The notes under the pieces are model-generated. The model was not told the origin of the DNA. It saw only the letters and a list, made by a program, of their open reading frames with translations, and made no database searches. From Sphingomonas sp. AP4-R1 (GTDB taxonomy: Bacteria; Pseudomonadota; Alphaproteobacteria; Sphingomonadales; Sphingomonadaceae): DNA of 64,000 nt. Position numbers and translations under genes: made by a program. Of the stretch, positions 9,603-15,184 are shown piece after piece. The first letter of the stretch is position 1. The number at the start of each line of letters is the position of its first letter. Location: assembly GCF_013113735.1 (NCBI RefSeq), contig NZ_CP053346.1:2122001-2186000 (forward strand). Direction: 5' to 3'.

Positions 9603-10418
9603 ATGTCCGCCCACGCCATGCTCCAGCCCCTCGAGCCCACCGCCAGCCTCACCGTCGAGAAGGTGTTGTCGGTGCGCCATTGGAACGAGCATCTGTTCAG
9701 CTTCACGATCACGCGTCCGGCCAGCTTCCGCTTCCGCTCGGGCGAGTTCGTGATGATCGGGCTGATGGGCGATAACGGCAAGCCGCTGCTGCGCGCCTAT
9801 TCGGTCGCCTCGCCGTCCTGGGCGGAGGAGCTGGAATTCCTCTCGATCAAGGTGGAGGATGGGCCGCTCACCTCGAAGCTGCAGCAGGTGAAGGAAGGCG
9901 ACGACATCTATCTCGGCCGCAAGCCCACCGGCACGCTCGTCGCCGATGCTTTGCTGCCGGGCCGCCGCCTGTTCCTGTTCGGCACCGGCACGGGCCTCGC
10001 CCCGTGGATGTCGATCATCCGCGATCCGGACATCTATGATCGCTACGAGCAGGTCGTGGTCGTCCATTCCGTCCGCAAGGTGAGCGATCTCGCGTACCGC
10101 GACGATCTGGACAACAAGCTGGCGGGTGATCCGCTGGTCGAGGATTTCGCCCGCACCCAGCTGCATTACATCCCCACCGTCACGCGGGAGCCGTTCCACA
10201 CGTCGGGCCGCATCGACAAGCTCATCGCGGACGGCACGATCTTCGCCGGCGATCCGTCGCGCCCGCAGGCGTTCGATCCCGATCATGATCGCGTGATGCT
10301 GTGCGGCTCGATGGCGATGATCAAGGAAACCGCCGAGCTGCTCGACGCGGCGGGCTTCACCGAGGGCTCGAACGCCAAGCCCGGCGAATATGTGATCGAA
10401 CGCGCCTTCGTCGGCTGA
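9603..10418 (+). CDS. fpr: Ferredoxin--NADP reductase
   Basis: The protein has 271 residues and is a bacterial (subclass I) ferredoxin/flavodoxin-NADP+ reductase. The FAD-binding motif is RAYSVAS. The NADP-binding motif is FGTGTGLAPWMSI, with the nicotinamide-side cysteine in VMLCGSMAMI. The protein ends in the short aromatic-containing tail IERAFVG, where family members place a residue over the flavin. It transfers electrons between NADPH and ferredoxin or flavodoxin in the cytoplasm. ATG 9603 is preceded by CCAAGG at a fitting distance; an internal ATG at 9618 is possible. Confidence 0.93.
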   Translation: MSAHAMLQPLEPTASLTVEKVLSVRHWNEHLFSFTITRPASFRFRSGEFVMIGLMGDNGKPLLRAYSVASPSWAEELEFLSIKVEDGPLTSKLQQVKEGDDIYLGRKPTGTLVADALLPGRRLFLFGTGTGLAPWMSIIRDPDIYDRYEQVVVVHSVRKVSDLAYRDDLDNKLAGDPLVEDFARTQLHYIPTVTREPFHTSGRIDKLIADGTIFAGDPSRPQAFDPDHDRVMLCGSMAMIKETAELLDAAGFTEGSNAKPGEYVIERAFVG

Positions 10419-10450
10419 CGCGGCGCCGCCGTCCGCGTCCTCCCTTTTTT

Positions 10451-10525
10451 GTCATTCCCGCGAAAGCGGGAACCCAGCTTTTTCCTTAATCCGGGAAACC
10501 GGGTTCCCGCGTTCGCGGGAATGAC
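10451..10525. repeat. Intergenic imperfect palindrome, 'cattcccgcgaaagcggg' family
   Basis: The left arm is gtcattcccgcgaaagcggg. The right arm is cccgcgttcgcgggaatgac. It sits between fpr and the SGNH gene and is the same type as 6819-6919. Confidence 0.9.
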
Positions 10526-10629
10526 GACAGGACGGCGGGCGATGCAATCCATCGCCCCGCCGACTCCATCCACAGCTTTCCGCCGCATCCTGCCTTGCCA
10601 AGCGGCCGCGCGCGCGGCAGTCGGATGCG

Positions 10630-11682
10630 GTGTCGCCCGTGCGCTTGCTTCTCGATCGAACCGCCGTCCTGTTCCTTGGCGTCGCCGCCGGGGCGGCGAT
10701 CGGCTATGCGTTCGGTACGGGCAATGAAAGTCATCAGGCGGTGGAGTTGGCGCCCGATGCCGCGCCCGCACCGCCGCCGCCCTCCACGGTAGCGCCGCCT
10801 CCGCCCACCGGGCCCGAGCAGGCGCCTCCCGCGACCGACGAGCCCAAGCCCGAAAAGCCCACGCCGGCGCTCCCCGAGGCGCCCGTCGCGCTGACCGACG
10901 ATCAGCCCCAGCCCGGCCTGGAAGATAGCGTGCGGCAGGGCCGCTCCGTCCGCATCGGCGTGTTCGGCGACAGTTTCGGCGACGGCGTCTGGTCGGGCCT
11001 CTACAAATTGCTGCCGGCGGGGCAGGGCTATCGCGTCGAGAAATACAGCCAGCAGTCGACCGGCTTCACCCGCTACAAGCGTCTGAATCTCGAGCAGCAT
11101 GACGATGGCCGCATCGGCGATCAGCCGATGGACATCGCCGTCATCTCCTTCGGCGCGAACGACGCGCAGGGCGTGTGCGGCGACGACGGCAAGTGCGGCG
11201 CGCTGATGAGCAGTCGCTGGCAATCGATCATCGGCGCGCGCGTCGAATCCTATGTCGGAATGCTCCGCCGGCATGGCGCGTCGATCTACTGGGTCGGCCT
11301 GCCGGTGATGCGCGATCGCGGCTTCGATGCCGACGCGACCGCGATGAACGCTTTCTACCGCTCGCTGATGGGGCGGCTGGGCGTGCCCTTCGTCGATGTC
11401 CGCCCGCTCACCGTCGATGCCCAGGGCCAGTATGAAGCTTATTATCCCGACGATACGGGCGCGCCGAAGCTGCTGCGCGCGAATGACGGCGTCCACATGT
11501 CGATGAACGGCTATCTGCGGATCACGCGCCCGCTCGCCGCCCGCATCCGTGAGGCGAGCGACAGTGCGCGGCGCCAGCAAGGCGGGCAGCGCAGCGCGGC
11601 CCAGCAGGGCGACAGCCCGCCGGTCGCGGTGGCGCCGGCCGCCCCGCCGCTCACCCTGTCGCCGGATCGGCCGCAGCTGTGA
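10630..11682 (+). CDS. Membrane-anchored SGNH/GDSL-family protein (DUF459-like)
   Basis: This 350-residue protein starts at GTG 10630. An N-terminal hydrophobic anchor (residues about 11-29) precedes a Pro/Ala/Glu-rich linker to about residue 100, then an SGNH fold in the periplasm. Catalytic motifs are GDSFGDG (S115), SFGANDAQ (N177) and NDGVH (D286, H289), so the triad is intact. A Gln/Ala/Pro-rich tail follows. Such proteins act as esterases or acetyl-transfer partners of MBOAT proteins on cell-surface polysaccharides. The stop overlaps the next start by four bases (GTGA), so the two SGNH proteins are translationally coupled. Confidence 0.82.
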   Translation: MSPVRLLLDRTAVLFLGVAAGAAIGYAFGTGNESHQAVELAPDAAPAPPPPSTVAPPPPTGPEQAPPATDEPKPEKPTPALPEAPVALTDDQPQPGLEDSVRQGRSVRIGVFGDSFGDGVWSGLYKLLPAGQGYRVEKYSQQSTGFTRYKRLNLEQHDDGRIGDQPMDIAVISFGANDAQGVCGDDGKCGALMSSRWQSIIGARVESYVGMLRRHGASIYWVGLPVMRDRGFDADATAMNAFYRSLMGRLGVPFVDVRPLTVDAQGQYEAYYPDDTGAPKLLRANDGVHMSMNGYLRITRPLAARIREASDSARRQQGGQRSAAQQGDSPPVAVAPAAPPLTLSPDRPQL

Positions 11683-13136
11683 TCGGGATGTTGATGGCGG
11701 CCGCCGCCGCGCTGGGCGCGGGCGAGGGGCTGAGCAACGGGCAGGTGCTCAATCCCTTCTTCGCGAAGCTCGCGCGCTCGGGCTCGGCGACGCCCAACAA
11801 GGTCCGCCCGCTCCATATCCTCCAGATCGGCGACAGCCATACGGCCGGCGACATGATCTCGGGCGCCTGGCGCGAGGCGCTGCAGGCGCGCTACGGCAGC
11901 GGCGGACGCGGCGTGATGGCGCCCGGCCGCCCCTATGACGGCTATCTCACGCGCGGCATCACCGCCGCGATGTCGCCCGAGTGGAGCATCGCCGCCGATT
12001 TCGGCAAGGGCTGGAGCGAGGGACATCCGCCGCTCGGTATCTCCGCTTACACGCTCACCAGCCGCGCCGCGGGCGCGACGATGGCGCTGGATGCGGAGCC
12101 GACCGAGCGCTTCGATCGCCTCGTCCTGTGCGGCATGACCGGGCCGGGCGCGGGCGCCGTCACCGTCCGCATGGGCGACGTGAGCGATCGGCTGAGCTTT
12201 TCCTCCGCCTCGGCGCGCCCCGAATGCCGCACCGTCACCGCGCCCGCCGCGCAGACGCATGTCGATATCACCACCGATGGCGGCCCCGTCACCCTGACGA
12301 GCTGGGCCACCTTCTACGATCATGGCGGCGTGGTCGTCTCCAATCTCGGCGTGGTCGGCTCGCAGCTCGTCCATTTCAGCCGCACGGACGACAGCGTCGT
12401 CGCCGAAGAGCTGCAGACCTATGATCCCGATCTGATCGTGATCGCCTTCGGCACCAACGAGGGGTTCGCGCCGCGCGTCTCGTCGTTCGAATATGAGGCG
12501 ATCCTGCGCAGCCAGATCGGCCGCATCCGCCGCATCGCGGGCAACGTGCCGATCCTGCTGCTCGGCGCGCCCGATGCGCTGACGCGGCGGAGCGAGCTGC
12601 TGGCCAACGGCCCCGGCGGGGACAGCAGCGCCTGCCGCGAAGAAAACGCGCCCTCCATTTCGCCGCCACCTCCGCCACCCACGCCGATCGGCGGCGGCAA
12701 TCTCGCCGCCGCGATGGCGCGGCTCGGCACCTTCCTCGGCGTCATGCCGGGGGCGGATCCGTCGCTGCCCGCGCAGGCGGGCACCGCCCAGCCCGCCCAG
12801 CCTGCGGCGGCTCCGCAGCCACAGGCGCTCTATCCGCCCGGTGCGGTCGTCCAGAAGCTGCCCGCACGCGCGCCCGAGGGAGCGCGCACCCCGCTCTTCC
12901 CGCCGTCCGGCCTGTCGGTGGTGCGCGATGTCCAGCGGCGCGTCGCCGCCTCGCTCCATGTCGCCTTCTGGGATTGGGAGGGGCGCATGGGCGGCCGCTG
13001 CACCGCGCTGCGCTGGACCCGCGCCAATCCCCCGCTGATGCGGAGCGATTACGTCCACTACACGAAGGCCGGCGGCAAGGAGATCGCCGACCGGCTGGAA
13101 GCCGATCTGGATCGCCTGACCGGGGCGGGGCGGTGA
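11679..13136 (+). CDS. Second SGNH/GDSL-family protein with Pro/Ala-rich insert
   Basis: The frame begins at GTG 11679, overlapping the previous stop; an ATG lies at 11688. The 485-residue product has a short Ala-rich start, then LQIGDSHTAGD (S53), IAFGTNEGF (Gly-Asn block) and, near the C-terminus, RSDYVHYTKAGG, which supplies the Asp-His pair. Between about residues 315 and 400 lies a low-complexity Pro/Gln/Ala insert. This arrangement resembles the larger SGNH proteins found beside MBOAT acyltransferases. It is probably periplasmic, acting with the preceding SGNH protein and the MBOAT downstream. I infer polysaccharide acetylation or deacetylation; the acceptor is unknown. Confidence 0.8.
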   Translation: MIGMLMAAAAALGAGEGLSNGQVLNPFFAKLARSGSATPNKVRPLHILQIGDSHTAGDMISGAWREALQARYGSGGRGVMAPGRPYDGYLTRGITAAMSPEWSIAADFGKGWSEGHPPLGISAYTLTSRAAGATMALDAEPTERFDRLVLCGMTGPGAGAVTVRMGDVSDRLSFSSASARPECRTVTAPAAQTHVDITTDGGPVTLTSWATFYDHGGVVVSNLGVVGSQLVHFSRTDDSVVAEELQTYDPDLIVIAFGTNEGFAPRVSSFEYEAILRSQIGRIRRIAGNVPILLLGAPDALTRRSELLANGPGGDSSACREENAPSISPPPPPPTPIGGGNLAAAMARLGTFLGVMPGADPSLPAQAGTAQPAQPAAAPQPQALYPPGAVVQKLPARAPEGARTPLFPPSGLSVVRDVQRRVAASLHVAFWDWEGRMGGRCTALRWTRANPPLMRSDYVHYTKAGGKEIADRLEADLDRLTGAGR

Positions 13137-13149
13137 TGCCTCTTTTCCC

Positions 13150-13250
13150 CCGTTTGGTTCGAGCAGATTCGAGCGAAGCCGAGAAGCGACCGTCGAGAAC
13201 CCTTCTCGACTGCGATCTCGACACGCTCGATCTTCGCTCGAAGCCAACGG
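13150..13250. repeat. Intergenic imperfect palindrome, 'cgtttggttcgagc' family
   Basis: The left arm is ccgtttggttcgagcagatt. The right arm ends gcttcgctcg-like and aagccaacgg. It lies between the second SGNH gene and the MBOAT gene, so it could form a structure within a shared mRNA. Confidence 0.8.
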
Positions 13251-13282
13251 ATGGAGATCAGCCGGCGGGACAGCGTTAGCCA

Positions 13283-14722
13283 ATGCTGTTCCCGACGCTC
13301 ACCTTCGGGCTGTTCTTCCTCCTCGTCTTCTCGGTCACGTGGAGCGCCTCCGCCTCGAACGAGTGGCGCAAGATCCTGCTGCTGCTCGCCAGCTGGGTCT
13401 TCTATGGCGCGTGGGACTGGCGCTTCGTCGCTTTGCTGATCGCGTCCGCCTTCCTCAACTGGGGCATGGCGCGGCTGATCGAGCGGACCGATCCGGATAC
13501 GGAAGAGCAGCCGAGCCGTACCGCCAAGACTTTGCTCCTGCTGGGCGTCGCCGCCAATCTCTCGATCCTCGGCGTCTTCAAATATTACGATTTCTTCCTG
13601 GAGCAGCTCGGCGCGATCCTCGCCGGGTTCGGCTTCGCGCGCGATATGCCGCTGATGCAGATCGTGCTGCCGGTGGGGGTGAGCTTCTTCACCTTCCAGG
13701 GCATGTCGTATCTGATCGACGTCTATAAGCGCCGGATCGCGGCCGAGAGCCTGCTGGACATCACCCTGCTGATGTCCTTCTTCCCGCATCTGGTGGCGGG
13801 GCCGATCGTGCGCGGTTCGGACCTGCTGCCCCAGTTCCGGCGGACGCCCGTGCTGACGCGCGACATGGCGGCGATGGGCCTCGTCCTGATCGTGTGGGGC
13901 CTGTTCAAGAAAGCGGTGGTCGCCTCGGAGATTTCGACCGGCCTCGTCGATCCGGTCTTCTTCGATCCCGCCTCGCATGGCAGCCTCGATCTGGTGGCGG
14001 CGGCCTATGGCTATGCGGTCCAGATCTACTGCGATTTCTCCGCCTATAGCGATATGGCGATCGGCATCGCGGCGTTGCTCGGCTACCGCTTCCCGCTCAA
14101 TTTCGATCAGCCCTATCGCGCCGCCTCGCTCCAGGAATTCTGGCGCCGCTGGCATATCAGCCTGTCGAGCTGGCTGCGCGACTATCTCTATATCGATGCG
14201 CTGGGCGGCAACCGGAAGGGCTTCGCGCGCCAGTGCGTGAACCTGCTGGCGACGATGCTGCTCGGCGGGCTCTGGCACGGCGCGAAATGGACGTTCGTGA
14301 TCTGGGGCGGGCTGCATGGCGGCGTGCTGGCGCTGGAGCGGATCTGGGATCGGTATCGGTATCGGCCGGAAGGCTTTCCGCGCCTGCCGCGCCTGCTGGG
14401 CATCCTGATCACCTTCCACATCGTCGTGCTCGGCTGGATCTTCTTCCGCGCCGAGAGCTTCGCGCAGGCGATCGCCTTCCTGGGCGGGCTTGTCGGCGGC
14501 GGCATGGCGGGGGCGGAGCTGGTGGTGACGCCGCTCGCGGTCGCGCTGATCCTGCTCGGCATGAGCTTCCATTTCGCGCCCGGCGATCTCGGCCAGCGCC
14601 TCGCCTTGCGCCTGCGCTGGCTGCCCGTGCCCGCGCTGGGCGCGCTGACGGCGCTGGCGATCATGATCATCGATGCGATGCGCTTCGAAGGCGTCGCCCC
14701 CTTCATCTATTACCAATTCTGA
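13283..14722 (+). CDS. MBOAT-family membrane O-acyltransferase (AlgI-like)
   Basis: The 479-residue polytopic protein matches the AlgI/PatA branch of the MBOAT family. These proteins move acyl groups, usually acetyl, across the inner membrane for transfer to extracytoplasmic polysaccharides. Visible motifs are FKYYDFF near residue 100, the conserved FFPHLVAGPIVR segment, FWRRWHISLSSWLRDYLY (H291) and LLGGLWHGAKWTFVIWG (H332, the catalytic histidine). The ATG at 13283 begins directly at the first helix. It lies in a set with two SGNH proteins and a small membrane protein; a repeat separates it from each neighbour. Confidence 0.92.
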   Translation: MLFPTLTFGLFFLLVFSVTWSASASNEWRKILLLLASWVFYGAWDWRFVALLIASAFLNWGMARLIERTDPDTEEQPSRTAKTLLLLGVAANLSILGVFKYYDFFLEQLGAILAGFGFARDMPLMQIVLPVGVSFFTFQGMSYLIDVYKRRIAAESLLDITLLMSFFPHLVAGPIVRGSDLLPQFRRTPVLTRDMAAMGLVLIVWGLFKKAVVASEISTGLVDPVFFDPASHGSLDLVAAAYGYAVQIYCDFSAYSDMAIGIAALLGYRFPLNFDQPYRAASLQEFWRRWHISLSSWLRDYLYIDALGGNRKGFARQCVNLLATMLLGGLWHGAKWTFVIWGGLHGGVLALERIWDRYRYRPEGFPRLPRLLGILITFHIVVLGWIFFRAESFAQAIAFLGGLVGGGMAGAELVVTPLAVALILLGMSFHFAPGDLGQRLALRLRWLPVPALGALTALAIMIIDAMRFEGVAPFIYYQF

Positions 14723-14745
14723 TGATGGCTCGTCTCTCGTCCCAC

Positions 14746-14848
14746 CCGTTGGCTTCGAGCGAAGGTTCGAGCCTGTCGAGAACCGAAGTCGAGAAGAGTT
14801 CTCGACGGTCGCTTCTCGGCTTCGCTCGAAGCTGCTCGAACCAAACGG
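14746..14848. repeat. Intergenic imperfect palindrome, 'gcttcgagc/ccaaacgg' family
   Basis: The element begins ccgttggcttcgagcgaagg and ends gctgctcgaaccaaacgg. Internal arms gagaagagttctcg and gcttctcggcttcg also pair. It lies between the MBOAT gene and the small membrane-protein gene. Confidence 0.83.
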
Positions 14849-14860
14849 TAAGGAGCTGAC

Positions 14861-15184
14861 ATGCCCCGCGAAACGCCGTCTCCAATCGATCTTCCCGACG
14901 ATCCCGTCGAAGCCCCCGGCCTCGGCTGGACGGCGGGCGTGATCGCGATCGCCAGCCTGCTGCTGCTCGCGATCAATGCGGTTGCCCTGCGCGACTGGGC
15001 CAACGATCTCACGCCCAGTCCCGTGCAGGCGCAGCTGGCGGACGCGACGCAAGGCTGGCTGGATGTCACCGAGGCGGTCGGCATCGGCAAGCCCCGCGCC
15101 TGGCTCCACGATCAATGGAAGAAGGCCGAAAATGCGCGCTTCGGCGGCGCCGCGCCGGACGAGGGCGCCCCGCCCGCGCCCTGA
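14861..15184 (+). CDS. Small single-pass membrane protein of the O-acylation set
   Basis: This 107-residue protein has one hydrophobic segment at about residues 24-44, preceded by an acidic, Pro-rich cytoplasmic stretch. A soluble part follows that contains ADATQGWLDVTEAVG and then a Lys/Trp-containing helix. I do not recognise a named family. The position 12 bases after the repeat and three codons before the convergent LysE gene ends suggests it closes the SGNH-SGNH-MBOAT unit. It may be an accessory subunit of the acyltransferase; this is inference from position only. Confidence 0.72.
   Translation: MPRETPSPIDLPDDPVEAPGLGWTAGVIAIASLLLLAINAVALRDWANDLTPSPVQAQLADATQGWLDVTEAVGIGKPRAWLHDQWKKAENARFGGAAPDEGAPPAP

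Follow-up and report, generated by a model that had tools for sequence, protein, structure and literature searches.

A putative peptidoglycan O-acetylation cluster of Sphingomonas sp. AP4-R1 in which a PatB-type membrane module is probably encoded as a separate gene

Peptidoglycan O-acetylation in Gram-negative bacteria is described in the available text of PMC12148441 as the work of a two-protein transferase, PatA and PatB. For the PatAB systems of other bacteria it is established there that PatA self-acetylates and that the acetyl group passes to PatB and on to peptidoglycan; Campylobacter PatA auto-acetylates via an FXYXXF acyl-shuttle motif. The same text presents an AlphaFold model in which the N-terminal region of PatB docks on PatA with a membrane helix and two further helices at the periphery; the helix of CjPatB is modelled at helices 1 and 17. 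For Zymomonas mobilis, a cluster is described in which ape2 and ape1b lie upstream of pat (PMC1199599, available part), and the accessible part of PMC13101528 reports that 55.9% of muropeptides are O-acetylated and that a delta-patA mutant is without O-acetylated muropeptides. Here we analyse a 64,000-nucleotide stretch of Sphingomonas sp. AP4-R1 (contig NZ_CP053346.1, positions 2,122,001 to 2,186,000), called the window, in which a patB gene, an ape1-like gene, patA and a small gene follow each other. The first three resemble a cluster for peptidoglycan O-acetylation (OAP), and we consider it quite probable that the cluster as a whole serves this modification with a three-part transferase, in which the small protein is a PatB module encoded separately.

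The small protein and the N-terminus of PatB

The initial annotation had described the small gene product as an unrecognised single-pass protein. It does have one predicted membrane helix (AlphaFold2), followed by three further helices (Table 1). Nothing in Pfam passed the cut-off (best E 0.12), NCBIfam gave no match, and a fold search with the model of the protein alone found none in the PDB at E ≤0.001. The protein can nevertheless be placed, since profile searches and hhalign show it to be homologous to the N-terminal portion that PatB has in other phyla.

A profile built from 20 small proteins of the stand-alone kind was compared with 10,254 six-frame open reading frames (ORFs; ≥45 codons) taken from the surroundings of PatA relatives (80 loci) in named genomes. 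It matched 58 of these at E ≤0.01, and none of the 10,254 matched away from PatA at this threshold. Forty of the matches are ORFs behind PatA that are separate from a recognised PatB domain and mostly stand-alone; their stop-to-stop lengths range from 97 to 418, and a few may be unrecognised fusions. The remaining 18, also behind PatA, form the N-terminus of the same ORF as the PatB SGNH domain (E 2.9e-8 to 8e-3). These fused loci belong to Actinomycetota, mainly Acidimicrobiia, with single cases in Ignavibacteriaceae, Spirochaetales and Dehalococcoidia, and they make up 18 of the 33 loci in which a PatB domain lies ≤1.5 kb behind PatA. Aligned with hhalign, the small proteins and the fused modules gave a probability of 97.8 over 82 columns and a score of 68.8. 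As the fused matches sit in the PatB ORF and none occur away from PatA, these comparisons identify the small protein as the membrane module of a PatB N-terminus, split off and lacking an acyl-shuttle tyrosine. Its overall architecture is that of the PatB N-terminal region modelled in PMC12148441 (available text), from which it differs in being a separate polypeptide. In three loci of the PVC group/Kiritimatiellae (L245, L249 and L266) the module is apparently stand-alone and located between PatA and PatB, possibly an intermediate between the fused and the split form.

The initial annotation had named, as a result that would speak against its interpretation, a failure of the small gene and the MBOAT to occur together in a conserved way; no such failure was seen. 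Among 149 sampled genomes of the family, PatA (orthologues at ≥62% identity), the DUF459 PatB (≥159 bits) and the small protein are found in the identical 24 genomes. Below these thresholds lie other MBOATs (≤46% identity) and, for DUF459, five others (≤29.2 bits). The small protein has one weak match elsewhere (G164), which was taken as chance, as the 10 kb read around it contain no OAP gene and the profile gives ≤12.9 bits. We read 27 loci around PatA (in 23 of the 24 genomes, the window genome being left out, and in four more of the genus) and found the small gene immediately 3' of patA in 26 of them, with PatB upstream in all 24 loci whose contig extends far enough. Over 196 genomes drawn from the order, the small-protein profile gave five matches including that of the window genome, none of them outside the family.

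The class sample comprised 385 genomes, taken as Alphaproteobacteria, with up to 12 first-look candidates per genome scored. The small-protein profile matches in at least 14 of these besides the window genome, and the gene is directly behind patA in 13 of the 13 that were testable. Three further small genes (G185, G318 and G420) were missed by this search and found by reading downstream of patA. When the search began with PatA, 18 of the 385 genomes scored >700 bits (the next 504); in each of the 17 that could be tested, the small gene lies behind patA. Named genomes with this arrangement include loci of Sphingomonas, Brevundimonas, other Caulobacteraceae, Parvibaculum and Woodsholea. The order patB-ape1-patA-small was also seen in a metagenome-assembled genome (MAG) named Azonexus, a betaproteobacterial genus (L259), with a weak small-protein match (E 2.9e-4).

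The N-terminal tail of the small protein carries the motif SPIDLP. The close-family consensus is SPVDLP, with P8 invariant and S7 and D10 ≥90% conserved in 28 sequences; across the broader set of 20 small proteins the motif is not retained. Distant homologues have Arg or Lys right before the membrane helix, which suggests an N-in, C-out topology. The N-tails of the sphingomonad proteins are mostly acidic, so here the topology rests on homology.

AlphaFold was also applied to a single chain of PatA, a 47-residue read-through linker and the small protein (62 alignment rows). The chain reached a predicted template modelling score (pTM) of 0.85, with a predicted local distance difference test (pLDDT) value of 93–98 in the core block of the small protein. 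A perfect PatA alone would yield at most 0.76 (479/633), and a pTM above this ceiling means that the small protein is placed with some confidence against PatA, which suggests that it docks there. Such packing, together with the tight position behind patA (a gap of 3–46 bases in 36 of 38 loci and of 90 and 152 bases in the other two, lengths that depend on script-chosen start codons), would also be expected of a protein that helps PatA to assemble or keeps it stable and makes no contact with PatB. In 18 loci the module is fused to PatB; this speaks for a role connected with PatB, and we regard a pure PatA factor as unlikely, with the remark that it is partly compatible with a separately encoded PatB module and that the explanations weighed in this study are not all mutually exclusive.

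Identity of the cluster and its likely acceptor

The window PatB is a DUF459 protein (Pfam PF04311, E 4.6e-50) and matches solved PatB chains (PDB 8tlb, E 1.6e-10). Its SGNH domain covers residues 108–303 and contains the catalytic set S115/N177/D286/H289, as aligned to PatB. The domain is preceded by a conserved N-terminal anchor (DRTAVLFLGVAAG) and a Pro-rich linker, and visual inspection of alphaproteobacterial loci likewise showed a PatB with an anchor or an apparent cleavable signal peptide, then a linker. We take the family known as Ape2 to be equal to PatB. The motifs GDSF at 113 and DGVH at 286 of the window protein agree with the GDS(H/F) and D-G-(I/V)-H that define Ape2 in the available part of PMC1199599.

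The second SGNH protein has the catalytic set S53/N260/D457/H460. Its best PDB match is 4k3u (E 1.1e-21), presumably the Ape1 of Neisseria meningitidis, for which our literature search gave no paper; the matching stretches, 40–303 and 409–481, span both catalytic halves. With GDSH at 51 and DYVH at 457 it has the GDSH and Dx(V/T)H motifs of Ape1 as given in the available part of PMC1199599. Ape1 proteins also have an insert of ~100 residues after motif I, and in the window protein some 200 residues, aligned to 4k3u, separate GDSH from the Asn block. A long Pro/Ala-rich insert (about residues 310–400) separates the Asn block from the Asp-His block. The protein thus looks like an Ape1-like O-acetylesterase. 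In OAP clusters generally, a hydrophobic wall in PatB is the published mark of a transferase as opposed to an esterase. On the sequence evidence given here the two SGNH partners, whose pairing the initial annotation had thought novel, are most likely the known transferase and esterase of OAP clusters.

The window MBOAT is the sole PF03062 match in the genome (E 7.4e-26). It is DltB-like in sequence (6bug, E 4.2e-30) and its top fold matches are DltB-type MBOATs; it scores 180.5 bits with the DltB model TIGR04091, below the cut-off of 375. H291, H332 and Y476 are invariant across 18 PatA sequences, and the C-terminal FIYYQF fits the FXYXXF acyl-shuttle motif of OAP PatA proteins. Families and catalytic residues thus agree with the initial annotation, which had read the genes as an MBOAT/SGNH O-acylation system and listed intact catalytic sets in both SGNH proteins along with H291 and H332.

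Neisseria-type and related OAP clusters (G774, G943 and G886) resemble the window in having a PatA with the FXYXXF motif (FIYANF or FIYYRF), a DUF459 PatB and an adjacent Ape1-type esterase; the gene at the ape1 position of G774 likewise matches the second SGNH protein. The window differs from them in its order patB-ape1-patA and in the small gene. Neisseria-type PatB has an N-terminal helical module, in Neisseria/Xenorhabdus-type proteins a membrane helix and about 60 more residues, whereas the window PatB has its own anchor and linker instead. Some Neisseria-type PatB proteins (P0198, P0231 and P0242) have a long Lys/Arg-rich tail ahead of the membrane helix.

The closest described cluster is that of Z. 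mobilis, which belongs to the same family as the window organism. A genome in our sample (G030) has a 100% plasmid match that identifies it as Z. mobilis ATCC 10988; it carries patB-ape1-patA-small in the window order (L082), and its PatA is 63% identical. The strain used in PMC13101528 is another one than the ATCC 10988 compared here, and the small gene is not mentioned in the available parts of PMC1199599 or PMC13101528.

A DUF459 PatB, an Ape1-like protein and PatA constitute the published OAP cluster, and the likely acceptor is therefore peptidoglycan, for which glycan-synthesis genes would not be expected nearby. The initial annotation had called the acceptor unknown; by analogy with the Z. 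mobilis data as well, peptidoglycan is most likely the acceptor in this organism. MBOAT/SGNH pairs serve several glycans (PMC12148441, available part), and the cluster might instead acetylate another envelope glycan such as a surface polysaccharide, in the manner of AlgI/AlgJ/AlgX. This we hold to be quite improbable, given the DUF459 and Ape1-like partners, the absence of AlgJ/AlgX Pfam domains from either SGNH protein (the feature of AlgIJXF systems) and the loss of O-acetylated muropeptides in the Z. mobilis mutant (PMC13101528, accessible part).

Controls on the homology and points against it

The fused PatB N-termini could resemble the small proteins merely because both combine a membrane helix with amphipathic helices. 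Membrane helices inflate profile scores, and it was the small-protein profile itself that retrieved the fused set. The real hhalign score stands far above its controls: the maximum was 30.9 in 100 alignments in which the region after the membrane helix had been permuted, and the reversed profile gave 13.5. The fused tail compared with the whole small-protein profile scored 40.6, as against a maximum of 14.3 in 100 controls. A profile of the 18 fused modules matched 62 ORFs at E ≤0.05, namely the 18 and 44 others, each of which overlaps or follows the end of PatA (domain positions were inspected for part of the 44). Together with the lack of matches away from PatA reported above, these results make a merely superficial similarity very improbable.

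Several observations weigh against a separately encoded PatB module or narrow its basis. The fused set, found with the small-protein profile, is not wholly independent evidence (its gene position is), and all 18 fused loci are on MAG contigs. Between the small protein and Neisseria/Xenorhabdus-type PatB N-termini (114 sequences) hhalign gave a probability of 13%, with four of 60 tail-permuted controls scoring as high or higher; homology to this type, which in contrast to that of Acidimicrobiia and other phyla is not detectable, is not claimed. This PatB type is close to the one with the published docking model. The N-terminus of published PatB is dispensable for activity in vitro (PMC12148441, available text). 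The docking on PatA is read from pTM, in a single-chain construct that tethers the two proteins. The window PatB scores 21.5 bits with the NCBIfam PatB equivalog NF045704, below the cut-off of 580; only one of 398 genomes of the phylum (G774) has a PatB that passes. The dependence of peptidoglycan O-acetylation on patA is known from Z. mobilis, another member of the family. In one family genome (G033) the small gene is ~187 kb from patB-ape1-patA (L074, L075), and in an alphaproteobacterial MAG (L217) no recognisable small gene follows patB-ape1-patA. In G033 the small gene is retained though unlinked.

A role as acyl carrier of the DltX kind, passing the acetyl group from PatA to PatB, is hardly credible and was rejected, for although the small protein is, like the DltX of teichoic-acid D-alanylation (Dlt), a membrane microprotein beside an MBOAT with an SGNH partner (PMC12148441, available part), it has no FXYXXF motif, the window copy is without any tyrosine and the shuttle motif is already borne by PatA.

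Locus layout, proposed mechanism and implications

The four genes lie in the order SGNH-SGNH-MBOAT-small gene on one strand, as first annotated (Table 1). The reading frames of patB and the ape1-like gene share four bases, and there are 146 bases between ape1 and patA and 138 between patA and the small gene. Against the nearest relative read (L085), third codon positions are the most divergent in all four genes. The arrangement is beyond chance, as it is kept in relatives and the divergence follows this pattern. Direct neighbours of the cluster are genes for a flavin reductase, a LysE-type transporter and NadA; it is for these that the absence of nearby glycan-synthesis genes, stated in the initial annotation, was checked.

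Table 1. Features of the cluster, in window positions
Feature	Position	Strand	Description
patB (DUF459 SGNH)	10630..11682	+	350 aa, GTG start; Pfam PF04311, PDB 8tlb
ape1-like (SGNH O-acetylesterase-like)	11679..13136	+	485 aa; PDB 4k3u match
patA (MBOAT)	13283..14722	+	479 aa; PF03062, 6bug match
PatA C-terminal FIYYQF (FXYXXF acyl-shuttle motif, Y476)	14702..14719	+	motif read and alignment
small gene	14861..15184	+	107 aa, putative stand-alone PatB-type N-terminal membrane module; profile and locus comparisons
SPIDLP motif, N-terminal tail of small protein	14879..14896	+	alignment of 28 sequences
membrane helix of small protein, residues 21-38	14921..14974	+	AlphaFold2, block pLDDT 94-95
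three helices (residues 40-49, 54-73, 76-94), presumed periplasmic	14978..15142	+	AlphaFold2
dispersed palindromic repeat, ape1-patA spacer; outside the system proper	13146..13262	+	genome repeat search
second copy of the same repeat, patA-small gene spacer	14742..14848	-	92% identical

Both palindromes noted between the genes are real; they are members of a dispersed family, for which a search of the genome gave 44 matching rows, certain places being listed once per strand. Similar sequence is found in both corresponding gaps of L085. Compared with the short patA-small gap of most relatives, the spacer here is long, and the repeat seems to have been inserted into an operon that is usually tight. 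The suggestion that the palindromes could set the relative output of the genes was dropped, because the repeat is dispersed genome-wide and evidence for a regulatory role was not found. Another inverted repeat (TCATTCCCGCGAAAGCGGGAA type) lies at 10449–10526, between the upstream reductase gene (9603–10418) and patB. Taken as a whole, the first interpretation was right in seeing an O-acylation system of MBOAT and SGNH proteins joined by a conserved additional small gene; what it said on the acceptor, the SGNH pairing and the palindromes was either too cautious or mistaken.

In the mechanism that we propose, PatA would use acetyl-CoA and self-acetylate Tyr476 of its C-terminal FIYYQF. Ser115 of PatB would accept the acetyl group and hand it on to peptidoglycan (N-acetylmuramic acid, MurNAc), from which the Ape1-like esterase could take it off again. 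For the small protein, the most likely place is against PatA, where it would hold the SGNH domain of PatB or guide it to the shuttle site. It would thus substitute in trans for the N-terminal docking module of PatB, a step that is our own inference.

The OAP system itself is known, and the new part is the small protein, a PatB module in the form of a separate, widely conserved alphaproteobacterial microprotein. A literature search covering titles and abstract openings among the matches listed did not find a separate PatB module. As a conserved third gene, the detached module gives the PatB N-terminus, dispensable in vitro, a testable role in vivo, and it is possibly a missing part for reconstituting the alphaproteobacterial system. 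Z. mobilis is a ready test bed, in which all four genes are present and a patA mutant exists. We give roughly even chances to the broader proposition that alphaproteobacterial peptidoglycan O-acetyltransferases are three-subunit enzymes, with a membrane subunit required to bring PatB to the acetyl-tyrosine of PatA. If this is true, PatB in these bacteria would be free or separately anchored, and a separate subunit could regulate or share the contact, in sphingomonads for example via the conserved SPxDL tail.

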